From Amphibalanus amphitrite (taxonomy: Eukaryota > Arthropoda > Thecostraca > Balanomorpha > Balanidae), in the NCBI RefSeq assembly GCF_019059575.1, contig NW_024882303.1:248001-312000 (forward strand): DNA of 64,000 nucleotides, given 5' to 3'. Made by a program: the position numbers and the translations under genes. The notes beneath the pieces are model-generated. The model ran no database searches, was not told where the DNA came from, and was given only the letters and a program-made list of their open reading frames with translations. Shown piece by piece: positions 7,226-40,100 of this stretch; position 1 is the stretch's first letter, and each line of letters opens with the position of its first letter.

Positions 7226-8381
7226 GAAAGGGGGGGGGCCGAAACGGCCCCCCTGTCCTTTTCGGTCAATATCTCCTAAACGGCTGGAGATATCGCCACC
7301 AAACTTTCAGGACCCCTCCGGGCATCAATTTCACACATTGTGACCAAATTTTTTTTTTCCAGAGGCTATGATAGGTTGGCCACAAATGACGTCAGAATGT
7401 TCTGTCATTTTCGACCGAAAAAAGACCTTCGCGAGAAGACCTGTCAGGCCTACAGCTTTGAAGATACAGAAAAATGATCAAGACATAAAAGGTGTAGAAT
7501 TGACAGGGCTACAAAACCGCTATCTCGGATTTTTGAAATTTTTGAGTTTTGACCCCAAAAATAAAAAAAAACTTTTTTTGGGATATATCAGCCAAAAAAT
7601 CCATAAAGTTTTTTGAGTTTCGAAAAAACCGGAATATATGTGATAGTGCCTACCGTCTTCTATCTACATACCAAATTTCAGATCGATACCTCGTTTTTTT
7701 GGCCAAGTTATAGCGAAAAAACTGTCCAAAAATGATGACGTCAAATTTTCAAAGTCAATTTTTGGCACTTCTAGACCTTGTAGAGCAAAACAAAGACCAC
7801 CATTAGACTCCCCGTGACGAGCTGCATCGAATCAATACCCATTTTATGCAAAAATATCAACTTTGAAATTTGACCTAATTTGACCTGACCTTGACCTGAC
7901 CTTCACCAAAACGTGACCTAAGCTGGCCCCAAAGGCTGCCTAACCCACATAATCGCATTTGTCATGTAAAATGAACCATAAAACATGTATCACACGACAC
8001 TTTCATATTGTGACCCCGGTGACCTGACCTCGCTGTGACCTGACCTGGTATCAGTGACCTCAGATAGCAAAGTATGTGTTTGACGAACAATGTAACATCG
8101 ATGGTTTTCAATAAATTACCAATTTACTCGATTTCGTAACACATTTCTTGAAATGCCTGTGAACGTTGAAAATCTGACCTTTGACCTGACCTGTGACGTC
8201 ATCGGTTTGACCTAGGTCAATGAAATTTGGTCACAAGGTAGTTCCCAGGTGGGGCTATCGAACGCCGTTTGAATTTTGAAAATCGGCCGGTAACTTTCCG
8301 AGATCTTAGGGGGGGGGGCGAAACGCCCCCCCCCCCTACGGGTGGTAGGGTCCGCCGGTAGCCCTACGGGGCGCGGGTTAA
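7226..8381. mobile_element. TTAA element F (left end damaged)
   Basis: The right end is intact: a G-run/C-run hairpin with GCGAAACGC at the centre (about 8309-8335), the word CCTACGGG, a spacer, then CCCTACGGGGCGCGGG and TTAA at 8378-8381. The left end keeps the matching hairpin (GGGGGCCGAAACGGCCCCC, about 7230-7252), but the terminal inverted repeat expected before it is absent. The interior has blocks rich in TGACCT/TGACC (7866-7920, 8015-8060, 8175-8215) and several TGACGTCA-like sites. It is homologous to the elements at 25301-26485 and about 46126-47290. Confidence 0.75.
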
Positions 8382-9399
8382 AGGGACCCTCCCACCTTAA
8401 CATTAGATTTGAGTTGAGATAGCCAAAATGGGGTCCCTGGCTCACAATTACCGGTTTCGGCACTCACAACATCGAGAAATGCCTTAAATCGGAAATATTG
8501 AATTTCAAAATTGCAGCATTTTGATTCAGAGGAGCTAATGCATAGGAATACCCCTCTGAATGTGTGACGTCAGCGCAGATATCTAACGATTTTTACATGT
8601 TTGACTAAAACGTTTTGTAGCACGCGGTGGTATATGCTGCTTTGCGCGCAATAAGTGCCGCACTTTCAGCTGCCAAACTATTGCTTCCAAATAAAGTCGC
8701 TATAGTTCGTTTTTTTTTTCAAAAGGACGCTGGCTCCAAGTTCGATGTCGAAGCTATCACGTGAGTTTTGGCAGCTTCAGTGTCTGGCCAAGAATTTCTT
8801 ACCGAAAAAATAATCGATTTCAAATTGTGCACGATAAGTAGCTGGAAATTATTTCTTAAAAATGAACATACTATGATGACGTCACTGGTGGCAGCAGGCA
8901 CCCAAATGTCCGTACAATGGGACAAGTGTCGACGAATTTGGGTGAAACTTAGTTTTTCACTGTTGCCGAGCTTATAATCGAGTAAGCGGTTCCGTCCATG
9001 ATAGTTATACGTTACATTGCAATACATGTTCGACAGCATGACGTCACCACTGTTCTCATATCTGGTTCCAAAACGCACATATGGAAACTATCGGGAAGAA
9101 ATCACATGTTAAAATTAGTCGACGTTCGATTTTCTCAGGTTCAGTTTTTGCTCGTTTTGCTCGCTAAAACACGTGCTTGTTCGAAAAACATACTTGGAGC
9201 CAGCGTCCTTTTGAAAAAAAAAACGAACTATAGGAACAGCGGAGATCCCAAAAAGTAAACAAAAGTAAAAGTCTAATATCTTGAAAACCGGTGAATATTT
9301 TTCGGTGAAATTTGGTAGATATTCGTTTTCGCTCTTTCTGAACCGAGCGACATCACTTTCATGCCAATTCATAAACTTTTTGAAGGTGGGAGGGTCCCT
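8382..9399. mobile_element. TTAA-flanked MITE, AGGGACCCTCCCACCTT family, carrying a nested MITE
   Basis: The ends are inverted: AGGGACCCTCCCACCTT at 8382 and its complement ending at 9399. TTAA flanks both sides (8378-8381, shared with the preceding element, and 9400-9403). The copy at 21128-21594 has the same sequence without the internal 528 bp TAGTTCG element, so that copy is the empty-site reference. Confidence 0.85.
8703..9230. mobile_element. TA-flanked MITE, family TAGTTCG, copy 2 (nested)
   Basis: The element has the same inverted ends as copy 1, with the interior in opposite orientation, and is flanked by TA at 8701-8702 and 9231-9232. The related host repeat at about 21420 reads GTCGCTAGGAACAGC without interruption. 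That shows a single TA was the target and was duplicated on insertion. Confidence 0.9.
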
Positions 9400-19561: not shown

Positions 19562-22500
19562 ATGCAGTCCAGTCCGTCTGCAGATCGTCACCCGGTCCGG
19601 CAGCATTCCGCCGGTGGTGACGGGCCGTCTAGCGCCGGGGACGGCGCGCCGGCGCCGCGGCTGTCTGGAGAGGCGGCGCTGCGGCTGGCGGCCGTGGTGG
19701 CCGTGCTGGCCGCCGCGCTGCTGACCGCCTGCGGGTGCGCCGACCACTCGGCCTGGCTGCAGCGCGAGCTGCGCGCCGCCGCCGCCCGCTCGCTGCTCTT
19801 CTGGCGGCCGGCGCCGGCCGGCCACTGGCAGCCGCTCGGCCACCACCGCCCGCCTCTCGCAGAGCTCATCGACCAGCTGGAGCGCTTTCCCAGCCCGGAG
19901 GAGTTCTTCAGCCGCTACGTGCGGCCACAGCGACCGGTCGTCTTTCGCGGCCTGGCCGGGGTCCATCCGGCCTATTGGCTGTGGACCGACGACTACCTCA
20001 GGTGGGTGACTCATTTATTCATCCAACTATAGTTCGTTTTTTTTAGCTTGCCCCTCACTGTAAACGTCATTTTGAACACAGCACGAGAATTGCTAGCTCA
20101 GACTCGTAGCTCGTATTTGCCAATACCTACAGCCCCACAGGGATAGACGACTTCTCAGGAATTATGTCTGAACTAATAAATAAATTGCACGGCGCTTAAC
20201 CCGCGCACCGACGGGGAGGCGGATATCCGCCCCCCCCCCCCCCTGAGCATGGTGTGCAAGTTTGAACCTCCTATCTTTTAAGGTCAGGTCACCAGGTCAC
20301 TTTGAATGACCCAACCTCAAGTCACTTTTTTGCAACTTTGTCACCGTGCCAGAGCTACAGTAGATGTCGGAGGCCTTTGAAAGTCACAGGATGTTATAAG
20401 GTCATTAGTAGCTACAATTTGTATATCTCGGAATTTTGATATCGGTGACCTAAGGTCAGGTCAATTTCTCGACCTCCCCATTATAAGTCAATGGGGGAAA
20501 AATCAACTCCCTGTTTTTACCACTAAAACGGGTCGGAATGGCCCCATAAACCATACATGACCTCATATACGATCAACCTTCACTACCTTGAGGTCTGTTT
20601 TGCTGTTGGGCAGCTGCAAGGTCACGTGACGTCATCAAAGGTCACCAGCGGTTTTTTGACAATAACTCCGTACAGAAACAAGATACAGCCGCGCGGATGG
20701 TCTCATTGTGTTCAGCTCGTCAAGGCGCATCGAATGATATGCATGATGACCTCGAGGTCACGTGACCTGAGGTCAACCTTTGACCTTGACCTTTCGAGGT
20801 CAACATATATATCATTCGATGCGGATTGACGAGAGGATCACGATGCTGCCCTTAGTTTGTTCCTATATTGACTAGTTCGAAAGTTATTCGAGAAAAACTC
20901 TCCATACCTAGCGCCGCCATTTTGACTTTTTTGACCCCTGTGACGTCATCTTTGACCTGACCTGAAAATGACCTTAGTAAAAATTGTAGACCTTGTCCGT
21001 GCGTATCCTTTGCCGTTTACCGCTTGTCGCTATCTTGCTTCGTTCTCGAGATTTCAGGGGGGGCGGTCATCCGCCCCCCCCCCGTCGGTACGAAGTTGGC
21101 GCAGACCCCCGTCGGTGCGCGGGTTAAAGGGACCCTCCCACCTTAACATTAGTTTTGAGTTGAGATAGCCAAATTGGTGGCCATGGCCTGAAAATACCGG
21201 TTTGGGCATTCACAACATCGAAAAATGCTTTAATTCGGAGATATGGAATTTCAAACTTGCAGTTTTCGGATTCTAAGGGGCTAATGCATTGGTATGCCCC
21301 CTTAGAATTTGTGACGTCAGCGGAGATCTAACGATTTTTAAATCTTTTACTAAAACGTTTGGCAGCACGCGGTGGTATATGCTGCTTTGCGCGCAACAAA
21401 TGCCGCACTTTCAAATAAAGTCGCTAGGAACAGCGGAGACCTCAAAAAGTAAACAAAAGTAAAAGTCTAATATCTTGAAAACCGGTGAATATTTTTCGAT
21501 GAAATTTGGTAGATATTCATTTTTGCTCTTTCTTAACCGAGCGACATCACTTTCATGCCAATTCATTAACTTTTTTGAAGGTGGGAGGGTCCCTTTAAAG
21601 GGACTATCCCACCTTCTAAAATGTTGTTAAAACCAGTTAAATTGTGCCCGACTTTATAGATTGGATGACCAGGAACACGGATCTGGCATTTATTTTTCAT
21701 TAAACATCTTAGGCTTCCCTTATTCCAAACACAAACTTTCAAATATGTGACGTCACAGCCCAAAATTACCTCCTTCCCCAGGCCACATTACTGTCATAAA
21801 GCTGATTCTTTTTACTCTGTAGGCACCACAACAAAGTTCAGACCAAGTTTTAAGCGATTTTTCAACGAACAAACCCATTTAAATCAGAATGACTAAACGA
21901 GGTGACGTCACACTAACGGTCGCTCCATGTTGAAGATAGGGCCTTGTACAAGGCCCATTTTCAAATGAAGGGAACGAATTTCTTCAACACCAAGAGGCCG
22001 CGGGGGTTGCAACCTAGATAGATAGTGGTTTCTGAACCTCGCCGCAAACTTGGCTATCTCAACTCAAACCCCATGTTAAAGGTGGGATAGTCCCTTTAAC
22101 ATAACGTTAAATGGTCGGTGTTCAAAACTTGTTTTGAAAATATTATTCATATCTACAATACAATGTACGCTAACCAGTTTTCTCAGTAATTCATCTAGCA
22201 ATTCTCGTGCTGTGTTCAAAGAGAACGTACAGTGAGGGGCAAACTTAAAAAAAAAAAATGAACTATAATGTCAGCTGGTCGGGCTATAGTCAGCTGGTCA
22301 GGCTAGCCAAAGCGACTAGGTAGTGCTTTATTATAATGAGGACTTTGGGTGATGTATCGGTCCCAGGGCAGTTAATTAAGGGTCGTCTGTGTAATTTGTT
22401 ATTGCAATACACGGGCCACATAAGCCCCTGTGCACTGCGGGTTGTAAAAGACTATGATGGGCGGCTTGGCAGCTGTTGCTTTGTACGGCGCTGGCTGGAG

Positions 22501-25500
22501 TCGGATCGAGCCGACAGAAAATTAATGTGATGTCCATTAGTCCCGTGGGCCTTCGATCTTGTTGATTCATTAGTCAGTTCCACTTTGTAGACCGTGGAAA
22601 TATATTATGCTTCTATTCGATATGCAAGTGCGAATTTGACGTCAGCGGTGCCTGGCTCGATAGCCCATAATGCATGTTACGTAAGTAAATGTCCTGTGGT
22701 ATGACGCCATTTCTCTAAGTCCTAAACTCGTTATATTTGCTCTAAAATCACGACATGAGTCACTGCAAAAAAGTCCGGTAAAAAAAAGGATCGCAACAAG
22801 TTATTTATTTACTACGGATACTTTGATAACCAACTTATTGTCTTTCAATATCAACTAAGTGCGTCTGGTGTGGGTGCCGGTGGTTCGTAACGGAGTCTTT
22901 TCCTACTTGGAAGTAAAATAGACAGAGTCGGACGGGAAAGGGTCTGTTCCATTCATGCTACGCATTATGAGTGCCGTCGTTCTTTAATCTTTTTTCCTTT
23001 TCAGGCGTGAATTCGGCAGCGTTGAGCTGGACGTAGAGCAGAAGAAGAAGGAGGACAGAAGTATCGGCCTCACACGGATGAACGTCTCTGAGTTCCTATC
23101 TGTCTACAAGGAGAAGGATCTCTACGTGGTGCACAGCATTCAGGAGGAAATGAGACGTGAGTTCGCTTGACTGTCGCGAGAGTGTTCGTTCGGGGGAGGG
23201 TTGCGGCAGCTCGAACAGCTGTAGGCTGTTCTTTAGGAGGCTATGTTTTTTGGCGATCTATCGTTTTCTTTTGTACTAATGTAGGTAATGTCGGATCGGA
23301 CCCCTCTGTAACCCCTCGGCAGGTGACCTGGCGCTGCTGCCCAGTGTGCAGTGACCTGACCTCTGTGTGACCTCTCTGACCCCTCTGTAACCCCTCGGCA
23401 GGTGACCTGGCGCTGCTGCCCAGTGTGCAGTGACGTGACCTCTGTGTGACCTCTCTGACCCCTCTGTAACCCCTCGGCAGGTGACCTGGCGCTGCTGCCC
23501 AGTGCGCAGTGCGGCGGCCTGCAGCGTCTGATGATGGACGCCGTGCTGTGGTTCAGCAGCGGGGGAACCAAGTCCGTACTGCACTACGACGAGCTCGACA
23601 ACATTAACTGTGTCCTTGACGGATATAAACACTTCTTCCTGGTTGATGTTGTGAGTAATCCTGAAATAAATTCGTTTCTGGATGTTTAACGGCAGTGTGT
23701 CATCATGTTGCTTGTAGTCGTTTTTATTATTTGTTTGCTAAGAAGCATAAAGCATACTCAGTTTGTCGCCGGGGCCACTAGACAATTATAAGTCTCACAA
23801 TATCCCTTGTTTGTTTCAGGATGACGCTCACCATATCGAGTTTGACCACATGGAAGGCCTGTACTCGTCTGTGGACGTCACCAGCGTGGACATGTACCGG
23901 TTCCCAGGTGAGTCCACTGTGGAATGTAGACCACAGTCCACTGTGGAGTGTGGACATAGTCCACCTCCACACGTCACGTGGACAAGTAAATGTTCCCAGG
24001 CGATTCCACTGTGGACTTCAATCCGTGCACAGCGGGGTCACGGGCTCCGTCGATACCTAATCCATTTTTGTCACTTTCGCTTGTGGCTGCCGTAAATTCG
24101 TCTGCAAGTCTGTTTTATTTTCCCTTTACGACCGTCGGGTTATGATATCGGTGGTCGGCAGTCAACAGCGTTACTGTCCACAGGATAGTTTATGGTGGCA
24201 TTGTGGGTGAGTTGCCCTGGTTGTCGTCCAAACGATCGTCGTAAATTGGGTGACCTTTGCTGCAGCGACGGACATTAAAACTTGCCGTGTAAAATACTGC
24301 TATTGCTAGCGGTGTCATGGCTATAGCTGTTAAATCCACTGCCTTCTTGCATTGTGATGATGATGTTGTTTTGTTATTTGTTTTAGAGTTCCTTGCGTTG
24401 AAGCGTTGAAGTTTATGGTCATCGCATTTGTTGGCAGTGTCCCAAAATTTGTAGATGTGGGTGGGAAACGACATCCAAATGAAAATCATTTTCCACTCTC
24501 ACCTCCAGTTTTCAAGCCCAATTTTCCACTCCCAATTCCACCGAGAAAGAGCAATTGCGTGAATGGTTATTATGCATCTGTCACAATCGTTGATAGATTA
24601 ATGTTTTTGATCATTTTCCCACTCTTTTTGGACCTTACCTGACCGACAATTTTTCACTCTCATCCTTTTTTGGTCAGCAATTTTCCCCTCTGACACCCAA
24701 GCAAAAATATAATTTTGGGACACTGTTTGTTGGTAAGCCTTTGCAATGTCTTACGAGCCCTTGATACCTTCGCTATGAAGTCTTTGTACGACACTTCATA
24801 CCGTGTGTCGTCAGTCCATATTCCGTGGCAGTTGGATTATACTGTTGAGCGGGAAAGGGCTTATTTCCTTATTGCTTATTTCCTATTCGTGGCAAGCTGT
24901 TTCTCTGGGTTCGGTGGCTACTTTGGCGCACTTCCCCTTGGTTTCCAACAGTAATATCTAAAACATTGAGGGACCACCAGAACTGTCACGGATTTCGCTT
25001 TTCGTACCTCTGTTAATGCTGCTCGGCTAGGTGTATTGTGAATTATGGTGGACGGTTGATCACAGGCATACGTTATCCACCGTCCAAAGACGTCCAACGA
25101 CAGTATTTAAAGAGACCAATGCTGTTCACGCATTGTGTGATAGTGCTGTGCCAGTGTCGTGTCACGCTGCTGAATGAGACCGGCGACCTGACGGACTGTT
25201 GGCCCTTTCGGTGGGCTGCTCTTGCTAGTACGTAACCGTACCAATGCCCGGTAAGGCAGTTTGACAGGCTGAATAGGCCGGTCCCGTGGGACGTGCAGCC
25301 TTAACCCGCGCCCCGCTGGGGGGGGGGGCAGAATCTGCCCCCCCTCCCTTTTTTCGCCAATAACTTCTAAACGCGTTACGCCAGCGGCGTCAAACTTTCA
25401 GTACCTTATCATACATCAATTTGACACGTTCCCTGACAATTTGAGCGAAATCCGTCGGAAAATTTTTGAGAAATTGACGTTTTAGTGACGTCATGTTCGC

Positions 25501-28500
25501 CATTTTCGCCTCAAAAACGGCAAAATTTCAAACGCCGCTAACATCTTCATTTTTAATGAAATCAAGACGTAACAAAAAAGGTTATACGTGATTTTACTTT
25601 GTCTATCAAATGGCTATCTCGGTTTTTTGAAAATTTTAGATTTTGGCCAAAATTTTTCAAAAAAACTGACTTTTTTGGGAAAATATTTATAAAATCCAAA
25701 ATTTTGAGTTTATCGAAAAAACCGGAATATATGTCAAAGAAGTGGTCTATGTGCACCTACATACCAATTTTTTGAAGAATCGGTTTAAAAATGTGGGAGT
25801 TATTCAAAATTTTATGACGTCACGACACACAAAAAAAATTGAAAAATGATTTTTTTGGAAGTTCTAGACCTCGTACGGAAAAAAATAGCACCATTCGATT
25901 CGCCGTGAAAAACTGCATCGAATAGACACCTTTTTAGGCCTTAACAACCAACTTCAAAATTTGACCTCACTTGACCTGACCTTGACCTGACCTCGACCTG
26001 AAATTCATCCAGAGGTGGTCCATATCACTTATTGAGTGTGCCTATTGAATTCCATGAGTAAAATGACCCATAAAACATGTGTCGCACATGCCCTTTTCTA
26101 TATTTTGTTTTTGGTGACCTGACCTGACCTGACCTGACCTTGACCTTGACCTTTGAATGACATTGTGTGCAACGAATATTGTCTTGGTAGTCAAAGAACA
26201 CGTTTTGGGCAATCAGTCTCAGTCCATTCTTCGGCAACTACGGTGCAAGGCCGATACTGTAGAAACTTGTATTTTGTACCCTTGACCTGACCTTGACCTG
26301 ACCTCTGACCTACTTAAGCAAAAAAAATTGGGCTCTTAAGATCCGCCTTGTTGAGAGCTTTCGATTGCCGTTTTCCCCGTCTTTCTACGACCATCGGTTC
26401 GGAAGTTAGACAGGGGGGGGCAGAATCTGCCCCCCCCCCCCAGCAGGGCGCGTATGGCTGAATAGCCCAGCGGGGCGCGGGTTAACCCTATTCCTGGCGG
26501 GCTCCGCCGGGACAAGAAACTGGCGGGGGGGGCCGATTCGGCCCCCCCCCTGAGATCTCGAGAACGAAGCAAGATAGCGACAAACGGTAAACGGCATCGG
26601 ATACGCACGGTCAAGATCTACAATTTTTACTAAGGTCATTTTCAGGTCAGGTCAAAGATGACGTCACAGGGGTCGAAAAAGTCAAAATGGCGGCGCTAGA
26701 TATGGAGAGAGTTTTTCTCGAATAACTTTCGAATTAGTCAAGATAGGAACAAACTAAGGGCATCATCGTGATCCTCTCGTCAATCCGCATCGAATGATAT
26801 ATGTTGACCTCGCAAGGTCAAGGTCAAAGGTTGACCTTAGGTCACGTGACCTCGAGGTCATCATGTATATCATTCGATGCGTCTTGACGAGCTGAACACA
26901 ATGAGACCATCCACGCGTCTGTATCTTGTTCCTGTACGGAGTTATTGGCCAAAAACCTTTGGTGACCTTTGATGACGTCACATGACCTCACAGCTGCCCA
27001 ACAGCAAAACAGACCTCAAGGTAGTGAAGGTTGATCGTATATGAAGTCATGTATGGTATATGGGGCCATTCCGACCCGTTTTAGTGGTAAAAACAGGGAG
27101 TTGATTTTTCCCCCATTGACTTATAATGGGGAGGTCGCGAAACTGACCTGACCTTAGGTCACCGATATCAAAATTCCGAGATATACAAATTGCACATACT
27201 GGTACCCTAACTAAAGCCTGAAGAGAAGAAATCGATCGGTCAAAAACTCTAGCTCTGGCGTGATTGCAAACTTTTCTGAGGTAGGGTCACCAAACCGCCT
27301 CTGGTGACCTGACCTGAGGTCAGATCAACTCAAAATTTTCAGACATGTTGCGTAGAAGCCTTTTAGGAAAAGTCAGAAAATTTGAGCTTCCTAGCTCAAC
27401 GCGTTTGGGAGAAATAACCAAAAAACCTCAGGGGGGGGGCTCCTGAGGCCCCCCCCCCCGCCAGGAATAGGGTTAAAGTAGCGAACATATGGTGTGGTTA
27501 CCGATAAAAAATCCAATGTTGTTGACAGTAACATTGATAGGCCTCCTGGTTGCATGTACTGTCATTTTGCACGGGTTATTAAAAAGTTTTTGACGGACTA
27601 GCTTTGTTAGGTTCTAGCTACATAGCTGTTTGATCTAGCGGTCATCCAATTAACCGATAAGAATCGAATGTCGTTTGCCTTATCCACGGTGAGTTCTTGC
27701 ACGGAACATTAGCTCAGTGTCCACGTTGGGAGCCAGCGGCGCCTTGTATGATAATTAGATTTCACTAATCCAGTGCTATATGCAAATTGCATATCATGGT
27801 CATTCCGTATGCCTATAAGCTATATGACATCGTCGCATTTCCTTTTTATTGTCATTGTTTTCAGCACAATCGATAAACATTTAAGGTCGTGACATTCTGG
27901 TAACATTTGATAACGTGACGCATTCAATAACCCATCAATAACGAATAACTCGCCAATCAGAAAGTGTGCTATTCCATTCGGCGCCAGGTTGGGGTCTACC
28001 CGTAAGTGGCGCTGCACGTTTTACGCTGATTGCGGATCGCTAAGGGAGCGGGGGGTGTCGCGTCCTTACAGCGCCCGGTCGATTAGGGTCGGAGTCGCGG
28101 AGTCCGTCGGCCCGTGGTGATATAAAGCAGACACACTGGGCTGCTAGGAGGAGGAGGAGCTACCCTGGCAGGGGTCAGGGCTGGCCGGTCACGGATAGGC
28201 CCAGGGACTCCAAAAAATAGGGCCGAATGGAATCCGGGAACGACTGGAGGATTCCAGAGATCGGCAGAGTGATGATTAAATGGGCTGCTAGATTATCACA
28301 TGAGCACTGATAGTGTCAGACCGTAAATGCTTGCCGGTTATGTCCATGGTTATGCGCGTATACACTTCCTAGAAACGAACCTCATTGCCCCGTTGAGTTC
28401 CTGTGTTTGGCCGCATAACAGCTGCAATAACGGCCGGTTGTTCAAGTTGTGAACTTCGGGGAAACTTCGTTGTTTTATTTGTCTTGCTTTTATATTAACT

Positions 28501-31500
28501 ATTTCCGCATGCCAGTGGATCATTATTTCAGAGATGGTGGTTGAGTCCATCATGAGTCCATGACTGCCCACTTAGCAACATTGCTATAATCTCTTTGCGC
28601 CGTAATTGAAGCCCGGGACTTTGCCTTTCATCGTCGTCTATAAGAACTTGGACAGTTTACGGCTGGGACTGTTGTAATTTCAGTCACTGCCCACTAAGTG
28701 ATGTCGGTGGACCACCCGGCTAGAAGATTGAAGCTTAGTATTTGAACATTTAACGTGCGTTTTTTACTCGGACCGTCTGTTGGAAGTGGGCATAGGTGGA
28801 AGGCTGTTATTAGAACTTTGTCAACCGGGCTCTTATTTTAGAATAATTTCAGAATCTGATCATTAGCACGATTTACGATTATAATAGTAATATAGTAATA
28901 GTAATAGTAATATATAGTAGCCAAAATACATACGATTAATCATTATCAAGGTCTCGCCACCGGTCGTCACAGGATTCAATACACCATTCTCGGCTTGCAC
29001 GGAGCCGCTGGTTAACTACATGTGCAGAGCGAGTTTTCATTCGCTCTGAGTGAATTCGTCGCCAAAGTCGGCGTTGCACCTCCGTCAGTCAGGCTCTGTG
29101 CATGTCCAGACTGCTGTTTTGGCCTGTGACGGCATAGCATTCACCTCTAGAGTTTATCGCCCACAACCGTCCACTTACGGTCAATTTACATGATGTCCGC
29201 ACGTGGGGGTCGTTGGGAATCGGACCCGATGTTGGTTTGTACTTGGTTTTATTAGCAATGCCCTATTGCAATATATAATTTGAGAAACTGTAGCATTCAG
29301 TATTCGTATTGTCATGAAAACGTTCATAGTCCAGCCATTCACTGGCGGCCTCTGACCGGCGAACATTTGTGATCGGTCATAATAATCGAAATCAAATGTG
29401 ACTGTAATTGGCCCTTTGATATGTGATCTGTTGGTCTGGAATCTGGATGCCTGGGTTCGTATCTGCTCTGCACACGTTTGTCCATCAGGTGCCAGTGTCT
29501 GTCAGAAAGTTCGCCTTTTGGCTGCATGTGCTTGGATAAGAAGCTTTGTGTAAGAAGCATTCTGGATACCTTCTTTCAGTGACCTCCATTTGTAAAAGTA
29601 TGTATGTACGTGTGAAGAAAATGTGTCCAAGATGTATCCGTCCGACATACACACGTTTCTATTGAGCGTGTCTTTATTGGTCGGTAGTGTCTGTTGCACA
29701 TTTGTCCTTTGGTCACCGTCGTCTATGGTGCGCATGTCTGTCAGGCTGCTATGCATGCATTTGTTAGTCACATAGTAGGGGAGAGTGGGGCACATTCGTG
29801 CAAAAAATGGATAAACCCATATATCTGTTCTTTGGTTAGTGCAATGGCAAAATTGTTGATTGTAGTATGGAAAGGCACTATTGCAGATAGTTTTCCTCTT
29901 TAAAAGTTATCCTATAAAATTATTACTTCCATTAGAAAAAATGACTTTTATTAACTCTGAACATTTGCACGAAACTGCCCCACCTATGGGGCACATTCGT
30001 TCAAGAGATGGGGCACTTCCGTTCACCCGGCAAAATTCGAGAAATTACCGGGCATTACCAGAAATTTACCAAAGGAAATTGGCAGGGGGTTATTTCACCT
30101 GATTCCTTTCGACAAGAATGCATTGCACAACAAATGTAGAAAGAATGGGCTGGCCAACAAGAATGTGCCAACTGCCGGCCTCCGTGACCTCGCTAAGTTC
30201 GCGTGAATTGCTCGTCACGACGTCGCAAGCAGTCGAGACTGAGTCAGGCGAGCGTCATTAGAGAAACCTACTACAGATAAAGTCATAAATCGCAAAACTA
30301 AAAAAAAAATATGCACGAATGTGCCCCCAGGCAGTGCGTACACGAACCTGCCCCACAACGTTATTAGTAATATATTTCAAAATTTCTTTTTGAAAAAATG
30401 ACACTTTTTCAACAAACAAGTTTGCAGCAGTTCCGTGAATAGAGTGGGCTTCTTCATCCCCAATTTTGAAAAGCTGAACCACATTTCCGAGTCAGGATCA
30501 CGAAAATGGATGATATGAGAAAAGTTTGGAAAGCTCACGAATATTACAAATTTGCGTTTTTATCAAGCATAACAGCAGGTACAGTGTTGTCTTCTACGGT
30601 GAACGAAGGGCGGCAATGATAGACATATTTCCATAATTTACCTTGAGCTCGTGCAGTCACTCGTGTTCCCATAAACTGCTGAAAACGAATGTGCCCCATG
30701 CACGAATGTGCCCCACTCTCCCCTACCCGCTGTCCGTTCGCCAGGCCTGAGGGACGTGCCGTGGTACAACGTGACCCTCTGGAAGGGCGACTGTTTCTAC
30801 CTGCCGTTCAGGTGGCCGCACCACGTCATATCGTCCAACTCTAGGTGAGCAGCCATCTCGGCAAGCCGGGATGGGCGCCGGTGGCGGGACTGTTGTGCTG
30901 ACGATAACGTATGAACAAACTACAAACATGAAAGTGGAGAGGTTCTTAAGTGCATGGCAGGGCTGCGGAGTCGATGGATTTTCGGCGACTCCGACTCCGA
31001 CTCAAGCTTTCAAAAACCAGCTCCGACTCCGACTCCGACTCCGGGCAGAATTGTCGACTCCGACCGACTCCAACTCCCGACTCCGACTCCGCAGACCTAG
31101 CAGGGCTGCGGAGTCGACAGATTTTCGGTGACTCCGACTCCGACTCCGGCTCGGGTTTCTAAAATCGACTCCGACTCCGACTCCGACTCCGGTCACAACT
31201 GTCGACTCCGACCGACTCCGACTCCGACTCCGACTCCGACTCCGCAGCCCTGGTGCATGGTGCCTTGCACTCCTGGCAAGTGCACTTTGAAGTGTATTAG
31301 CAGAATATAGGGCAATATACTGTCACGTGTGCTGATGTGTTGCTAAGTGTGACAGCTTTATGCAACCACACGTCTGACGCTGCTATACAGTCAAGTAGTT
31401 TGATATAGGGTATGGCTTGTGACCGGAATTGGACAGTGTATTTATGTGTGGTTTCGGCTGGTGCCCCTATGTGTGCTGATAGGTGATTATTAGTCGTTTT

Positions 31501-34500
31501 AATGTCATTAACCAATAACCGGTATCAAAGGTCTGGATTTGGTGTCGGGGCACTCAGCGGCCAGCCTCGACCCGGCGTCGTCAGTAAGGCCGCCGTTATT
31601 TCCACTGTAGCTCTGAATAATTACCGTTTGCCAGCGAGTAAAGCGAGTGTTGAGTTTCTGGGACATTTGGTGAATTATTCCTGTAGTCAAGCTTGTCATT
31701 TATTCTGGTTGGGGCCTAGGGTTGTAAAGCTGCCCGCAAATATACTGTGTAGTTGAATGGGAACTTTTATTTCCAGTAAGTATGAACCAATCATTCAATG
31801 TGCAACGTGATCATGGATGACTTCGACTTGGCTCAATATCCCCTACCTATATTTACGTGCTTTGCGGTTCAGCCTCAGAGGTTGGTTAGACTGTGCCGCA
31901 TGGCTCGGCTGCGCTGCGGGTCAGCCTACCCTGCCAGTGAAGCTGACAATCAGCTCAATTTGACCTGCTTTCATCGAGTTCGTGCTGCCTGGGCTGTGAT
32001 GACTATGTACTTATGTAGTGTGGACGTTCTAAGTACATGTTTTGGATTTTTCTGTCTGTTCGGTTGGTCACTATAATTTTCATCACCAACTTAACCATTA
32101 TCGCCATTATCTTACATATCACGGTCGTTAACGCTCAGACCCCGTGCCATAGTAGATGGTCCAACCCTGAATAGCCACGACACAGTTGATGCTCAATGTT
32201 TCATGCATCGGATATTTGATCTTCTAGGTCAGTGCTTGAATCCTAATAAATACGACAGGGCGTATCGATCAGATTTTAGGGTCGTTGGCTTGGACATAAT
32301 GCTTTCTTGAAAAGCCCTGTGGTGGCTTCTTCCCAAGGAATCAAACTAACGCATTCTAAAATGTAGAGCTATTTTTTTCATTTTTCATTAGTGATATGCA
32401 TCGGGTGATCAGCTATTGAGTGGATTTCGATTGGACGATTCCCAATGACAAATGGTCCGAGTCGGTTGGATACTGTGCATACGTTGGAATGCTGTTTCAA
32501 TGTTGTTTCGTCCTGCGTTACGTCACTGAAAATCATTACATTACCTCGCCGCATTGGAATGTAGTGCATGAGATACCGAATGCTAGAACATTGTACTGTC
32601 TACCTGAAATTATAGGCCCTAAATTACGTCAAAGAGGGGAAGAGCAGATTATGATGTGTGCCCTATTGGCTGCAGCTCTGGTCAAGAACAAGGGACGGCA
32701 GTCAGGTGTCAGCTTGCCAAGTTACACCATTTCCCCGTGATTGGATTGTCCCGATGCCAGTGTCTCTTTTAACTGATTACAACTGCGGGCCATGAATTCG
32801 CATTGCAACTCCAGGGAATTAGACATGAATAAATGATAGTCTTCGGTTCACTGATGGGATGAATGAAAGTTGTGGATCGCTTTAACCCTCGCCGGACCTA
32901 TTGGTTTTCTACATACGCGCCGGCCGAGGGGGGGGGGGGCGGGTACGACCCCCCTTGCCGTTTCGCCCCTGGTGGAGCTAGCGCGTCGCGGAAAAAACGA
33001 GCGTGTGCGCCGTTACGAGACGCAGAGATTGGTACCCGATTTTAAGGTCCTAGGTCAACCGGTGACCTCTGAGGTCAGGTCAAGTGCCCCAGGGTACGGT
33101 TCAGTTTTTGGTGAAAACTTCGCAAAAAACGGCCGCAGAGCCGCGATTTTGGCAGCATCGTGTTCGCCTTGCTCAGGCGCGTCGAATGATATACTTTTTG
33201 TTCGGGTCAGGTCAACTTAGGGTGTTGACCTCAGGTAAAGGTCAGGTCAGCACCCCCAGGTCACGAAGTTGGTCGAAAGAGGTCATGTCGCATATCATTC
33301 GATTCGGCAGGTCTTCCTGAGTCCATTGGTGGCTTTCCCGACTCGCTAGATTAATTTGATCGGGAGTTATTGACGAAAAACTAATATGACCTTGATGACG
33401 TCATAAATGACGTCACGGAAGGTCAACATTGCAAAAGTGACGCATCTAACCTTGCAAGGAGTGCATCAAATCACGATTCTGTGTGCTTGAGATAGTTGGA
33501 GATCGTTTCCGGCGCCAGAATAGCAGTTTTCATTTTTCCCCATTGACTTATAATGGTGAGGTCACAAAAATGACCTGACCTCATATGACCTTTAGGAAAA
33601 ATCCGAGATATACAAGTTTTGAGACTCATAATGGATACTAGATCCTGCAAGTTTCATTTCCCTGTGACATCTCCTCTGGCAGTGAGGGCGTTGCGAAGTT
33701 GCGACATCTGAAGACCGTGCAGAGGTTCACTTATGACGTCATAGGTCAGTGACCTGACCTGACCCAAAAATGCGGTTGGTGTCAAAAGATGCGGCTTGGA
33801 TCAAAGGTCAGGTATGCCAAGTTTCAGCTCTCTATCCCCAGCGTGTTCGGAGCTATCGCGAAAAACCCCTATGGGGGGGGGGCGGCACCCGCCCCCCCCC
33901 CCCCCTCGGCCGGCGAGGGTTAACTTGACTGCCCATGGAGTGGCCCGTTAGAATCCGTTGTTCCTCATGTTGAGTAGCCAGCGTGGCGGTCAGGTCACCT
34001 AGCCTGTCGTGTCCCCATACGGACCAATTTACGCCCCTTCAGGCACGGTTGGCCGGTATCGCCGCCATTCCGTGTCGTGCGCCACTTTCGAAGGCGGCGC
34101 GGCGGGAATCGTCTGGCATTGATCGTTGCCGTGAACGTCAGCCGCGCGCCTGCTGTTCAAATAGCCGCGGAACAGGCCTACCAAGGCGCGCCGTGGCCGT
34201 GGCCGCCGCTGGAATGTGCCGCCGTTGTCGTCATTATATTTGTAGGCGGTGGGCAGTTCGTCGAGCGCTGATCGGTGTGGGGGGGGGGGGGGTCGAACGG
34301 GGTCGAACGGGGACTGACGCGGCGTGACATGCTGTGTGTGCGTGATCGCGTGAACTTACCGAAACTGCTGTCGTCATCTTTGGCTCCGTGGGTTGCCGTT
34401 GGTAGACTGCACACTGCCGATGGCTACAATGCTCAACATTACGTAACTGTATAGAGGGAGCCGTCTATATAATGTCATCTGTCCTTCTCTGGGTATGCTT

Positions 34501-35425
34501 TCTTTTTCTCTTTTCTTTTTCTCTTTCTTACGCCGCTTTCGTCTCTCTTCCCGATAGGAACGTGGCTGTGAACTTGTGGTTCTCCCGACTTCTGTGGTTC
34601 AACGAGTCTGAATGTTCCGACTTTCGGGTCAGCGAGCACGCCAGTCTGAGCGACTTTGATCCGGCAGAGGACGCAGACCTACAACGGTGAGTATCCAGGT
34701 CACTGATCTGGAGCTAGCGGCGAGTGTCACAGAACTGGGCTGGAGTTTCAGTAGTGTATGCCCCCTAAACTGCAGACATGAACTTCCTGCATGGGGTGGG
34801 GTTCCAGCGCTGACTTTCCACTTGGATTAGTGGTCCGTAGGTGAATGCGCACCGAATGGGGGACGGTCGATAGACCAAGGGAGCGCCATTGCGTGAACCG
34901 AATGCTGACTAAATACTGGTATTGCTATTCGATGCTGGCATTAGTCAGTGAGATCGCCTCTCTCTCTTGCGCTCTGTCGATATACATATCATGGCGTCCG
35001 TATACTACCGCTTGTCCTTGCTGACCTTAGGTATATATAAAATAGCATGTACCTATCTCGAATGACCCCCTTCCTCAACTCCAAGGACTTCTGGGTGTTA
35101 GTCCTCGCTGACCATGTTTGACCCCCTTTGACCTCTGTTTACCTTCGATGACCTCTGTTAACCCCCGCTGACCTCCACTGACCCCGCTGACCTCTGCTCC
35201 CTCAGGGCACACCTGGTGGCGCGGGCCGAGGACTCTGAACAGCTCACTCTGTTGGCTTTCGCCGACCTGTACTCCGACGCGCTGCCCGACGACGATGAGG
35301 CAGCTGAGGCGGCGTTTGATCAGCTGGACGCTGACGGAGACGGCCTTTTGCAGCTCCCCGAGATGTACAAGTTTGAGGCGGTCAAGTTTCTGCGGCTCTT
35401 CCCGAGGTACGAGCGGCGTGATTGA
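19562..35425 (+). CDS. Membrane-anchored JmjC/cupin-8 oxygenase-like protein with C-terminal EF-hand
   Basis: Seven exons: 19562-20001, 23005-23156, 23481-23650, 23820-23907, 30745-30844, 34558-34686 and 35206-35425. Joined, they give 432 residues with every junction in phase and GT-AG borders. A short N-terminal tail precedes one hydrophobic segment (about residues 38-57), suggesting a signal anchor with a luminal or extracellular catalytic domain. The start of the oxygenase domain is recognisable at FPSPEEFFSRYVRPQRPVVF. The Fe(II) site is HYD (H232, D234) plus a distal His in GDCFYLPFRWPHHV (about H309). K247 in DGYKHFFLVD is a candidate 2-oxoglutarate contact. The C-terminus has a canonical EF-hand loop DADGDGLLQLPE (401-412). 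The fold predicts a 2-oxoglutarate-dependent hydroxylase; the substrate is unknown, and histone demethylation is unlikely given the anchor. Confidence 0.88.
20196..21127. mobile_element. TTAA element A
   Basis: TTAA lies at both ends, with inverted repeat CCCGCGCACCGACGGGG. The left end continues into a GGCGGATATCCGCC hairpin. The right end carries the matching hairpin (GGCGGTCATCCGCC), then CCGACGGGG (in complement), an 18 bp spacer and the terminal repeat. At the centre (20747-20802), seven AGGTCA/TGACCT half-sites lie within 56 bp, bracketed by CATCGAATGATAT and ATATCATTCGATG. The interior is homologous, in reverse, to element C (26482-27476), whose ends are different. Confidence 0.9.
21128..21594. 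mobile_element. TTAA-flanked MITE, AGGGACCCTCCCACCTT family, empty copy
   Basis: TTAA at 21124-21127 (shared with element A) and 21595-21598. The ends and body match 8382-9399 apart from the nested insertion there. The sequence contains a TGACGTCA site at about 21312. Confidence 0.88.
21599..22095. mobile_element. TTAA-flanked MITE, AGGGACTATCCCACCTT family
   Basis: The left end is AGGGACTATCCCACCTT; the right end is AAGGTGGGATAGTCCCT after 22078. TTAA lies at 21595-21598 (shared with the previous element) and 22096-22099. The ends differ from the preceding family by a few bases (ACTATCCC against ACCCTCCC), but the interior is not obviously the same. Confidence 0.85.
23301..23520 (+). repeat. 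79 bp tandem repeat spanning the acceptor and start of JmjC exon 3
   Basis: Three head-to-tail units begin at 23301, 23380 and 23459. Each contains CCCCTCGGCAG|GTGACCTGG, so the acceptor and first about 30 exon bases occur three times (acceptors after 23322, 23401 and 23480). Only the third continues into the JmjC coding sequence. In the first two units the reading frame meets TGA (CAGTGA) after about eleven codons. Confidence 0.9.
23886..24015 (+). repeat. Echo of JmjC exon 4 end and its donor
   Basis: The exon end GTGGACATGTACCGGTTCCC with AG|GTGAGTCCACTGTGGA (23886-23923) recurs 92 bp downstream as GTGGACAAGTAAATGTTCCC with AG|GCGATTCCACTGTGGA (23978-24015). The echo has lost the GT donor and gained an in-frame TAA. 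Further CCACTGTGGA pieces lie between the two. Confidence 0.8.
24016..25300 (+). other. JmjC intron 4, first part: no gene
   Basis: No coding family is recognisable. A small run of CATTTTCCACTCTCACC/AATTTTCCACTCCCA variants lies at about 24485-24670. Nothing else has clear borders. Confidence 0.4.
25301..26485. mobile_element. TTAA element B
   Basis: TTAA at 25301-25304 and 26482-26485, inverted repeat CCCGCGCCCCGCTGGG. Both ends carry a G-run/C-run hairpin with the same core CAGAATCTG (about 25318-25346 and 26413-26441). The right end has an extra spacer with a second CTGCTGGG-like word. TGACCT arrays lie at about 25965-26005 and 26115-26155. The interior is related to elements F and G. Confidence 0.9.
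26482..27476. mobile_element. TTAA element C, sharing its left TTAA with element B
   Basis: Inverted repeat CCCTATTCCTGGCGGG, with TTAA at 26482-26485 and 27473-27476. Here the spacer and duplicated word (CTGGCGGG) are at the left end. G/C hairpins have cores CCGATTCGG (left) and CTCCTGAG (right). The centre holds seven AGGTCA/TGACCT half-sites (about 26804-26860) between CATCGAATGATAT and ATATCATTCGATG. The body is the reverse of element A. Confidence 0.9.
27477..29775 (+). other. JmjC intron 4, middle part: no gene
   Basis: This is a long stretch with no recognisable exon, element or RNA gene. A TAG/TAA-type microsatellite lies at about 28880-28920. Confidence 0.4.
29778..30723. mobile_element. 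TA-flanked MITE, GGGGAGAGTGGGGCAC family, copy 1
   Basis: The inverted ends are GGGGAGAGTGGGGCACATTC followed by GTGCA at the left, and its complement ending at 30723. TA lies at 29776-29777 and 30724-30725. The same outer sequence and much of the interior recur at 43471-44169. The right end is a pyrimidine run that sits 21 bases before the acceptor of JmjC exon 5 and so lies in its polypyrimidine-tract position. Confidence 0.88.
30958..31255. repeat. Compound CGACTC (GGAGTC) hexamer repeat
   Basis: Runs of CGACTCCGACTCCGACTC alternate with GCAGGGCTGCGGAGTCGA-type boundaries. This gives two related blocks (about 30958-31100 and 31100-31250), the second ending GACTCCGCAGCCCTGG. The Ser/Asp/Arg-rich open frames on both strands are products of the repeat. 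A small remnant of the same repeat is at about 19335-19400. Confidence 0.9.
31256..32881 (+). other. JmjC intron 5: no gene
   Basis: No domain or element border was recognised between the hexamer repeat and TTAA element D. Confidence 0.4.
32882..33923. mobile_element. TTAA element D
   Basis: TTAA at 32882-32885 and 33920-33923. The terminal repeat is CCCTCGCCGG, extended to CCGGCCGAGGGG after a 24 bp spacer at the left end and contiguous at the right. G/C hairpins lie just inside both ends (cores GGGTACGACC and GCGGCACCCGC). The centre has TGAATGATATAC-type flanks (about 33184 and 33290), with AGGTCA half-sites between them. TGACGTCA-like sites lie at about 33395-33415. Confidence 0.88.
33924..34557 (+). 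other. Rest of JmjC intron 5
   Basis: The GC-rich open frames at 33983-34330 show no domain. A G-run of about 12 is at 34278. The intron ends in a pyrimidine-rich tract and GATAG|GAACGTGG at 34557/34558. Confidence 0.4.
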
Positions 35426-36969
35426 CCGAGACACGTGACTGGTGCTTCTGGTCCGTGTGCTCTGGGACCGCGGTCTAGGGACCTGTTCCTGTCACGTGAC
35501 CACGGACTGACTGATACTGGGCTGGGTGTGCAGGATTCGGAGCTCTAGGCTCCTGTTCTACGTGTCACGTGACTGACCTTGGCCGCACCGAGTGTCCTGG
35601 GACCGCGGTCTTGTGTGCAATGTGTTCAAACGTGGACATAATTGCCACGGCAAGCTGTGATCTTTGAATGAAACCGACTCCGTCCATATCTGTCGGTAGT
35701 GTCTGTATTTTTGAAAACTTTTTGCGAAGATAATGCTTTGTATTCATGGCATAATTACATACCGTTGTGTGGACCGGCATGGTTTATGTGCGCATATATT
35801 GTAAGATTACAGCTTATTATCCAGTGGTCGTCTTACCACCGATCATGGGTATGTTCACTGCAGCCGTGTTGTGGGTACTTTGGCATTTGTAACGGTTGTG
35901 ATTACACGCTTCCGTGCTAGTCGAGGAAGTTTTCCGTCCATTTATTATAGATGCGATGTTCATTGTTCACTATGGTGCAGGTAAAAGTACTCACCCGCTC
36001 GTATAAGGTTCACTGGATTTGTGCTGACCTTCCGGCTTCTGTAAGGCTACGCTGAAGTGTAAGTGGAGTGCGCTTTCAGCGGGAATGCTGGTTACCGTAA
36101 GAATTTGTGTTAAATCAATCCAGCAATGAGCTTTTTCGAGTTAATCGCTATTGGTAAGTGCAGCGTCGCGCTCAGACTAATTTATTGTGTAACATTAACC
36201 GCGTAGGCTGCATCGTCGAAGCTTTCTTGTTTTCGCCCTTGTATCACTCCCGTTGAAAACTTGCTCGATGTGGTTAATCGAAGGTAAATACGAGTGGCCG
36301 TCAGCCCTGCCTCGGCTGTCGTGTGTGATTGCTGTACAACAAACCACTCGTGTGTGTCCTGTGCAAATAACACTCTTTGATCGGCGGTGACAGGGGGCGG
36401 GCACCCAGTGGGGGGGGGGGGGGTACTCAAACCTTTTGATCTGAACGGCAGCTCGGTGCCTGTGAAGGACTGTACCGTGGTCACTCAGACTGACCCGGTA
36501 TCTGTGACCGCTGTGCACCACCTTGTCGACATAGGTTGGAGCTCGGGCGCTCAATACATCGTCCGTATCGCATATGTGTGTGCTGGTGGCCAATTTTCGG
36601 TTGGTAAATACATTACCAAACGTACTAATTACAGACTGTTTCGATGATGACCCGTGTGGTGGTGGTGAAAAGAAGAGGAAGGACTGAGGTGGTCGAGCAT
36701 TGTTGGGATCCTCATGGTTAAATCGTGTGCTGATCGAGCCTCGATGGTTGCAAATTTCCGGGCACAGTCCATACGTCCGACTCACATATTTAGGTTTGTG
36801 AACCTCACTGAGAAGGCACGTATGTGGAAATGCTGGCTTTCTAAAGACGTTTCTGAAACAATTGCTATCTATTGTGATTCGTAGGAAAATTTATATCTCA
36901 CATGATCCTATTTTATGCGTTGTCAGTTCATTCTAAATTGGAAGGTATTGGTGTAAGTAATCTTAATAA
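35426..36969. other. No gene recognised downstream of the JmjC gene
   Basis: The JmjC gene stops at TGA 35423-35425. A 196-codon minus-strand open frame at 36195-36785 has no recognisable domain. A G-run lies at about 36410-36422. No confident polyadenylation signal was identified. Confidence 0.4.
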
Positions 36970-36972
36970 TAA

Positions 36973-38116
36973 CACTATGCAACAAAAAATGAAACATTTT
37001 CTGTTCCTGGAAAGCGACCGAATTTTTCTTATTCATTGGGTCCTATTATAACCGAAATGGGCATTAGTTTTGATCTGAAAATGCTTTTCCGGTTTTCAGA
37101 GACGATTTTCGATTTTTGGCCCCGAAATTCGGTTTTTGGCCCACCGTGTCCGATGTAATTGAGTAATCGACTCGCGGTAACTTTCATCGCCTTTCCTATG
37201 CCACAAGCTTTCGAATGATATCTGGTTTTGCATATTTGCGTGCAAAAATAACGTCATAAATCTATGTTAAAGTAAGAAAATGTTGAAATTTTGTAAAAAT
37301 TTGACATTTTTTCGATTTCATTTCAAAATAGAGGAAAAACTAAAGGCCCCATCCAAATTCTGAGCCCAGTTCCTTGACGAGCATTCAATTTCCGTTCGGA
37401 AGGTACATTTTTAGTGCATTTTATCGGATTCCTGTGGCGTCCAGATTGAGTTAACCTAAACACATATCCTAAGTCATATCACATAGCATTAACCTGATAA
37501 CGTATGTTAACGCCATAGGATCAACGAGGGGTCAACTGAGGTAAATTTGTTGACCCCTTGTGACCTCGGGTCACACGCAGGAACTTACTTTTGAGCAGTC
37601 CTGTCGCTCAGAATCTTGATCTGTTGGGGACCCGTTTTTCAAGTGACTCAATCTGGACGCCACAGGAATCCGATAAAATGCACTAAAATAGTACCTTCCG
37701 AACGGAAATTGAATGCTCTTCAAGGAACTGGGCTCAGAATTTGGATAGGGCCTTTAGTTTTTTCTCTATTTTAAAATGAAGTCGAAAAAATGTCAAATTT
37801 TTACAAAATTTCAATATTTTCTTACTTTAACATAGATTTATGACGTTATTTTTACACGCAAATATGCAAAACCGGATATCATTCGAAAGCTTGTGGCATA
37901 GGAAGGGCGATGAAAGTTACCGCGAGTCGATTACTCAATTACACCGGACACGGTGGGCCAAAAACCGAATTTCGGGGCCAAAAATCGAAAATCGTCTCTG
38001 AAAACCGGAAAAGCATTTTCAGATCAAAACTAATGCCCATTTCGGTTATAATGGGACCCAATGAGTCCAAAAAAAAATCGGTCGTTACTCAGGAACAAAA
38101 TGACTGTTGCATAGTG
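36973..38116. mobile_element. Large fold-back (long inverted repeat) element
   Basis: Arms of about 475 bases (36973-37451 and 37646-38116) are near-complete inverted copies around a loop of about 195 bases. The outer ends are CACTATGCAACA and its complement. The flanks carry TAA on both sides (36970-36972 and 38117-38119), a probable 3 bp duplication. No transposase ORF is visible. Confidence 0.9.
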
Positions 38117-38119
38117 TAA

Positions 38120-38906
38120 TGGGTGTTCGCCCAGGCTAGTTTGGTTTATCGTGTGAATTACAAGATACCCAGCTGCTCTGTTGCGTGTTTTCTTCTTCTT
38201 TTGTTTCGTTTCTGTACTGTCAGCCTATCACACAACATAGCCTTCCGGAGACCCATGCATCACTACAAAAAGTGCTACCCGGGACAGGTGGTTATCCAGA
38301 TCGTGTCACATCCTAAACTACCCATTACGGACGCTCGCGTGGCCAGGCTGATTTATTATAGTATCACTCATTCCATAGCACATATGCATGGCCTATCATT
38401 AGCCCGGGCGACCCAACGTGTGTACTGTGTATGCTATACAAAGGACAGTGTTGGCAGTGGTGATTGATGCCATTCCTCGTCGCGCCAGTGTTATTTATAC
38501 ACTTGCTCGGTGGGCGAACCGTACCGTCCCGCTGCTCGTCAGGGGTCGCTGGATGCCACCCTCTGTGCGCCAATGAGCAGCCGTGTCCAGCTAACCCAGC
38601 CGGTAACAAAGTAGCGTACCACAGTCCGCGACAGCCGTCGGTAATCAAGGGAGCAATCTTATAAAGTGGCACCCTTCGTTATTCGCCAACTTGGCAACAT
38701 TAGGGTGTAATTGTACACTTGACGCAGTGACTGATGCATTTATAAGGTTATGTTACCAACACCAACGTCAGGAATTATGTATCATGTATTCTTACCAAAT
38801 GCCCGCTAACTGCTTCGTGCTATATGAGATAGCTCTAAATTCATTCAAAATATATTGTATTGAACGCTGTTTTGTGGCAGATCATTCCAGTCAGAGTTGC
38901 AAATCA
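38120..38906. other. No gene recognised
   Basis: The short open frames on both strands show no family resemblance. The open frame at 38123-38467 has a hydrophobic stretch but no splice or start support. Confidence 0.35.
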
Positions 38907-40100
38907 TTAACCCGCGCCGGGCCGGGGGGGGGGGTGTTTGAACACCCCCCTTGCGGTTTTTCGCAGATATCTCAAAAACGGCGGCGCAGAGCGCCGCTCT
39001 GCGCCGCCGTTTTTGGCACACCTGTTTGTGCATCTTTTCCGCACATGTTGTGAAAATTTCAGACCCAGGTCACCTTAGGTCAGGTCATCAGGTCACGCCA
39101 AGTGACCTCACCTCAGAAAAAATAAGAATGCTCGTCATAGCTACACCGACTGAACGATTGCCTTGAAACTTTCAGCGATTGATTAGAGCAACACTATCTA
39201 TAAAATGTATATCTCGGAATTTTGATATCGGTGACCTAAGGTCAGGTCAAATTTGCGGCCTCTCCATTATAAGGCAATGGGAGAAAATTGAAAAGCGTCT
39301 GTTTTGCACGAACGCTATTCTAGACACTCTCAAACATCGAGATGTAGGTAAAATAGATACACTGAACCAGAAAATGGCAACTGTGACCCCTCGTTATGTC
39401 CCCGAGGTCATCTCAGGTCACGAACAGAATCTAACAGTTTTTCGATGATAACTTCTGATAGAGGCGTGCTAGAGCGCTGAAAACGCCTTAGATGTGTTCG
39501 GCTCGACGTTGCGGATCGACTGATATGCAACATGACCTTTTCCGGTCAGGTCATGACCTTGACCTGAGGTCAAATTTTCAAGTTGACCTTTCAAGGTCAA
39601 ATTATACTTCATTCGACGCGTCTCGACGAGAGGAACACGATGCTGGCAAAAGTAATGTCATAGCTCTTTTGAGTCAAAAGTTATTGCCGAAAAAAACATT
39701 TTTCGTAAAAACGGCTATTTTTGGAGTTTTTGCCCTCTGGAGGCTAAATCGTTGACCTGAGGTCAAATCTGAGAGCATTACTCAGAAAGGTCTGTAAAAG
39801 GGCTATCGAATGCGCTTTTTTGCGGCGCTGTAGCTCTATCGGTTCCCGAGATAGCCGTTGGCAGTTTCCAAAATGTTGAAATAGTCAACATTTTACCTTT
39901 GGTGACCTCTGGTGACCTGACCTTTGACCTGACCCAAAAAATGACCGAAGTGTTTTCGTCCTTATTTTTGACGTTCTTTCGATTGCCGCTTACCGCGTGT
40001 CGCTACGTGGCCCAGGAGCCGAGTTAGAGGGGGGAGGGGTGTTCAAACACCCCCCGCGGCCCGGCACGGAATCTCAGAGCACCGGCCCGGCGCGGGTTAA
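38907..40100. mobile_element. TTAA element E
   Basis: TTAA at 38907-38910 and 40097-40100, inverted repeat CCCGCGCCGGGCCGG. Both ends carry the hairpin core GTGTTYRAACAC within G/C runs (about 38932-38950 and 40028-40056). The right end has the extra spacer and a second CCGGGCCG word. The centre has several TGACCT/AGGTCA half-sites (about 39531-39601), with GCGGATCGACTGATAT before and TTCATTCGACGCG after. Confidence 0.9.

Follow-up and report, generated by a model that had tools for sequence, protein, structure and literature searches.

Matched ends of putative piggyBac-type miniature elements in Amphibalanus amphitrite follow family identity

A 64,000-nucleotide stretch of the Amphibalanus amphitrite genome (assembly GCF_019059575.1, contig NW_024882303.1, positions 248,001 to 312,000; hereafter the window) contains five TTAA-bordered elements, A to E, whose two ends resemble each other within an element and differ from one element to the next. 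These elements are very probably non-autonomous miniature inverted-repeat transposable elements (MITEs) of the piggyBac type, which come from separate families and are known in kind. The matching of the two ends within a copy is a matter of family identity, and copying of one end onto the other is not needed to account for it. Most of the pattern is covered by piggyBac biology that is already known, and the sharing of interiors between families is the remaining point of interest.

A first-pass annotation of the window had described five elements with a shared end plan, and all five were recovered at the positions listed in Table 1. They range in length from 932 to 1194 bp, and none contains an open reading frame (ORF) of 130 amino acids or more. 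Every element has TTAA at both borders, an inverted repeat beginning with CCC, and a G-run/C-run hairpin at each end; including the TTAA, the perfect terminal inverted repeats (TIRs) measure 21, 20, 20, 14, and 19 nt in A, B, C, D, and E, respectively. The ends are asymmetric in all five: the short end consists of a word followed by a palindrome, and the long end of a word, a spacer, the word again, and a palindrome. The annotation had stated that the word occurs three times in each copy and matches itself. This applies to A, B, C, and E; in D, only two words are alike, the outer long-end word being CGGACCTAT, as it is in the D-family copy L063 too. The hairpin cores had been said to match broadly at both ends, which does not apply to C, whose two cores differ (CCTCAGGAG versus CCGATTCGG).

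Table 1. Positions of elements A to E, of the two ends of A, and of related copies in the window (window coordinates)
Feature	Position	Strand	Remarks
Element A, probable piggyBac MITE	20196..21127	+	Short end left, long end right; 932 bp
Element B, probable piggyBac MITE	25301..26485	+	Short end left, long end right
Element C, probable piggyBac MITE	26482..27476	-	Long end left, short end right
Element D, probable piggyBac MITE	32882..33923	-	Long end left, short end right
Element E, probable piggyBac MITE	38907..40100	+	Short end left, long end right
Short (left-end, LE-type) end of A	20196..20243	+	Tip, word, palindrome
Long (right-end, RE-type) end of A	21057..21127	-	Tip, word, spacer, word, palindrome
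Element F, related MITE	7229..8381	+	Long end intact, word CCGTAGGG twice; short end damaged
Decayed copy, relative of family L078	45608..46009	-	Long end at left
Decayed fragment, relative of family C	57115..57467	-	Short end TTAACCCTATTTCGGACGGGG

Among A to E, matching short to long ends by similarity gave the actual pairs as the best of all 120 permutations, whether the outer word or the inner region was compared. The window contains 17 G-run/C-run hairpins, whereas 20 shuffles under a first-order Markov model gave 0 to 2 each. To look beyond the window, its own assembly was searched (G000; 807,550,619 bases, i.e., 807.6 Mb, in 2,644 contigs). A pattern for the short end gave 18,180 forward matches versus a single match for the reversed control; alternative C-run ends push up the reverse-strand count (58,958). 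Among the matches listed, 84 short ends carried 23 six-base words, and the words were linked to the hairpin cores, with a mutual information of 3.75 bits versus a maximum of 2.36 in 2,000 shuffles. Within these 84 ends, each word was paired with one core, barring length and point variants and one exception, a six-base word common to families C and L080, and the core TGTTTGAACA was found with three words.

A long end of the same plan was identifiable within 1.5 kb in 16 of 20 copies on contig C1 that carry other words. Left out of the word and core counts were L064 and L079, which have no GGGTTAA within 1.5 kb, and L070 and L077, which have one candidate each, without the long-end plan. Where several candidate ends were present (two in L071, one in the others), the best word match was used, a choice that favours agreement; the inner word of L071 was placed in its core in the word comparison, and its row is poor. 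With A and C added, 18 families were compared. Short-end and outer long-end words agreed at 7.94 of 9 positions within families and 4.53 between them, short-end and best inner words at 7.0 of 8 versus 5.1, and the similarity of hairpin cores was 0.82 within versus 0.43 between families; none of 20,000 permutations reached the observed value in any of the three comparisons. A family's own partner core was the best or tied for best in 12 of the 18. Chance as the origin of the end matching is ruled out by the pairing, hairpin-shuffle, and permutation tests and by the shuffles of words against cores. In all likelihood, the genome holds about twenty or more piggyBac MITE families, A to E coming from five different ones. 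The ends do differ as first reported, the difference being between families rather than between copies as such.

Families A and C were sampled at greater depth, by scoring the best 40 of 4,450 first-look candidates for A-like DNA and the best 40 of 2,394 for C-like DNA. Window copies aside, the former were 97 to 98% identical, and the latter were 98 to 99% identical over positions 1–995 or 3–995, both ends included. BLAST pieces shorter than 500 bp were left out of the copy counts (one was seen, of 353 bp, in L004). The 62 copies from 60 fetched loci had (short, long) ends of type (A,A) in 30 cases, (C,C) in 30, (none,A) in one, and (none,C) in one, and mixed A/C ends did not occur among them. 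A second sample was picked by end sequence on contig C1, among the matches listed, with partner ends sought within 2 kb. Here, A short ends faced an A long end in eight of nine cases and a C long end in none, and C short ends faced a C long end in seven of nine cases and an A long end in none. Genome-wide, exact long ends combining the A outer and A inner words numbered 2,686 (1,359 + 1,327) and those combining the C outer and C inner words 2,044 (1,022 + 1,022), with no exact match for an A outer word followed by a C inner word. A and C are two multi-copy families, each with a fixed short end and a fixed long end. For B, D, and E, one further copy each was compared over the full length, and identities were 96.4% (B versus L075, on contig C1), 96.1% (D versus L063), and 96.3% (E versus L076). 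Copy L009, at 1011 bp, exceeds element A (932 bp) by about 79 bp.

Several observations weigh against this picture of separate families with fixed, matching ends. The A and C copies are the best-scoring ones and are biased towards near identity. Outer words deviate within families D, L073, L074, and L078. A candidate autonomous source, on contig C1173 (described below), matched one MITE family (L073) and none of A to E, and its words differ between its two ends. Moreover, interiors do not always follow ends. That the interiors of A and C are homologous and their ends different had been noted correctly (94% identity over 679 bp), and the first-pass annotation had named copies with the same interior always having the same ends as the result that would count against its own proposal. 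For A and C, 60 of the 62 copies had same-family ends and none had mixed ends, whereas three copies break a strict reading: L006 (at 504), whose two ends are both of type A, is C-like at 15 of the 20 interior sites that tell the families apart, and L020 and L011 carry a mixture at such sites. All 20 sites were chosen from the very copies they are used to sort. Interiors may cross between the A and C families.

Sharing of this kind was found in six family pairs, whose central parts are 0.81 to 0.97 alike and whose end words are different. In five of the six, the long-end spacers, which are not words, are 0.17 to 0.72 alike, below the value for the middle, although the spacers are only about 18 nt long. 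In several pairs, the similarity of the subterminal 80 bp, too, is below that of the middle. Between A and C, identity rises from about 0.5 to 0.95 some 280 to 320 alignment columns inside the short end and drops abruptly at the long-end hairpin; between L068 and L078, it drops abruptly at both hairpins. Where the words differ together with the spacers and the sequence next to them, whole end blocks are different, and this is explained most simply by conversion of one family's interior to that of another, with the ends retained.

Alternatively, there may have been no recombination, the families with shared middles having diverged from a common ancestor while their ends evolved fast under selection that followed changing transposases. 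In the sixth pair, L067/L071, this reading does well: the middle is 0.92 alike, the spacer is identical at 18 of 18 positions, the few word changes fit an even divergence, and there is no break between end and middle, which counts against interior conversion. The end-to-end alignments of L061 with B (87%) and of L062 with E (82%) likewise suit divergence and speak against conversion, and the differing words at the two ends of the C1173 element also suit divergence. Divergence alone is nevertheless rather unlikely, given that spacers and subterminal regions are less alike than the middles they flank, that identity falls abruptly at the hairpins, and that a copy with A ends and a mostly C-like interior exists. 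The shared middles are most likely due in part to interior conversion between families and in part to divergence.

The first-pass annotation had held that matched ends in each copy require a process that copies one end onto the other, such as hairpin-templated repair or end-to-end gene conversion. Words and cores that are more alike within elements than between them are what such a process would give, but the mutations found at the ends are not. Among the 60 A and C copies that retain both ends, 17 deviations from the family TIR were one-sided, and none occurred on both sides. Ten of the 17 represent a single change, in ten A copies whose short end reads TTAACAC while their long ends still read TTAACCC; because these ten go back to one inherited change, the one-sided departures amount to about eight independent events. 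In D, moreover, the outer long-end word is unlike the other two in both copies seen. End-to-end copying is rejected for families A and C on the 17 one-sided versus 0 shared departures, and as a general explanation it is very improbable; in A and C the ends are fixed by family, and the supposed requirement falls away. Since mixed ends were absent among the copies seen, ends paired with those of their own family, and end mutations were one-sided, the matching within copies therefore reflects family identity.

The arrangement of three words had also been thought undescribed, and it turns out to be the published end plan of piggyBac. The left end of the Trichoplusia ni element is given as a word and a palindrome, and its right end as a word, a 17-bp insert, the word again, and a palindrome (PMC7351741); primer text in another source has a piggyBac end beginning with CCC (PMC10853822). 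T. ni piggyBac (LE35/RE63) and the A-to-E type share the TTAA, a short end of word and palindrome, a long end with an insertion (17 bp in piggyBac) and a duplicated sequence, and the CCC start. They differ in that the A-to-E type has G-run/C-run hairpin palindromes with variable cores and words that are mostly G+C-rich and family-specific. The piggyBat element of Myotis lucifugus also uses a repeated word and a palindrome as binding sites, but has three word/palindrome units on its left end and no such palindromes on its right (PMC11707139). Pokey and the mPok MITEs of Daphnia are comparable as piggyBac-superfamily elements with MITEs in an animal genome.

A precedent is provided by the CMITEs of Acropora, piggyBac-type TTAA MITEs whose internal region is described as more conserved between families than their TIRs, with an autonomous relative in the same coral genome (PMC2872659). 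The likeness lies in the middles being more conserved between families than the ends, which applies here to five of six pairs and not to L067/L071; CMITEs are about 100 bp long, whereas the present elements are 0.9 to 1.2 kb long and have asymmetric ends. Apart from CMITEs, no piggyBac MITEs that have this layout, or whose ends or middles had been exchanged, appeared among the open-licence papers listed.

A transposase was sought with a PF13843 (DDE_Tnp_1_7) profile search of the genome, which gave 116 scored matches among 232 candidates; many of these matches lie in open frames of 550 to 680 amino acids. Flanks were read in part at 14 transposase loci. Two of them (C44 and C1173) have a long end of the form TTAACCC-TCGC-ACGACCAGG-spacer-ACGACCAGG-hairpin, nine have other TTAACCC ends, mostly TTAACCCATTARYGC, on one or both sides, and at the remaining three the ends gave no clear plan. 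At C44, where the long-end side was read, the long end is the same as at C1173. The C1173 element (G000:C1173, approximately 156154–160130) has ends about 4 kb apart, both of the A-to-E plan; its short end, at 156154, reads TTAACCC-TAGA-ACGCTTAGG-hairpin, and its long end closes near 160130. Its PF13843 match (158057–159112) lies in a 590-amino-acid frame without stops, the element having been read base by base in its flanks. Alignment of MITE L073 (949 bp) with this element gives 89.5% over 391 bp on the left and 90.0% over 320 bp on the right. Towards the left of the C1173 element (G000:C1173:156150-157650; L105, L103), one stretch of the L073 interior is matched repeatedly, the pattern expected of tandem units about 190 bp long. 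On these alignments, the L073 family appears probably to have arisen by internal deletion, and we infer the same origin for A to E. Because the PF13843 match sits between ends of the same plan and L073 matches both termini, the G-run elements seem best filed as piggyBac; the earlier view that TTAA targets with CCC starts point to piggyBac mobilisation thus probably holds for the kind of element. A TTAA target alone does not separate piggyBac from Kolobok and is not decisive, but with this transposase match between same-plan ends and L073 matching both termini, there is next to no chance that the elements belong to another TTAA-specific superfamily such as Kolobok, at whose transposase no search was aimed.

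By analogy with the structure of T. ni piggyBac, the transposase core would bind the word, and a dimer of the cysteine-rich domain would bind the palindrome. All three words and both palindromes would then be predicted sites for one transposase and would be inherited together. Selection for mobility would keep the words and palindromes of one family alike, and families would differ since each would answer to a different transposase lineage. Less surely, exchange of interiors between families by gene conversion or recombination, in some cases with breaks at the G/C-run palindromes, may have contributed along with recent divergence to the middles shared by families with different ends.

Other features of the window may be noted. 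Elements are stacked on each other's TTAA: C and B have a TTAA in common, and the TTAA at the right ends of A (21121–21154) and F (8375–8400) also opens another TTAA-bordered element (TTAAAGGGACCCTCCCACCTT). The middles of A (20704–20845) and C (26763–26904) each contain an inverted repeat, imperfect and about 140 bp long, and in A this region also matches E and D. The 5,348 bp of A to E contain 98 AGGTCA/TGACCT hexamers, versus 85 in the remaining 58,652 bp, and judged by eye the hexamers often follow a 5-bp period. The region 45608–47240 combines pieces from at least two related families, nested in or abutting one another, with an L078-like piece on the left and an L065/L072-like piece in opposite orientation from about 46655. 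Further, positions 37023–38074 form an inverted repeat with 429-nt arms, 96% complementary and 194 nt apart, and on the minus strand at 953–4546 there are ORFs that by eye resemble parts of a non-long terminal repeat (non-LTR) retrotransposon.

These elements add a further case, after the coral CMITEs, of piggyBac MITEs with a shared middle and differing ends. One genome that has about twenty or more natural sets of words and palindromes, and transposase matches within long open frames as well, is a resource that would allow the end code of piggyBac transposases to be read by comparison. We put forward only tentatively, as something short of an even chance, that about twenty or more piggyBac end specificities coexist in this genome, each consisting of three words and two palindromes that match as a set, with MITE interiors moving between them by conversion. 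If true, a non-autonomous parasite could switch transposase while keeping its middle.
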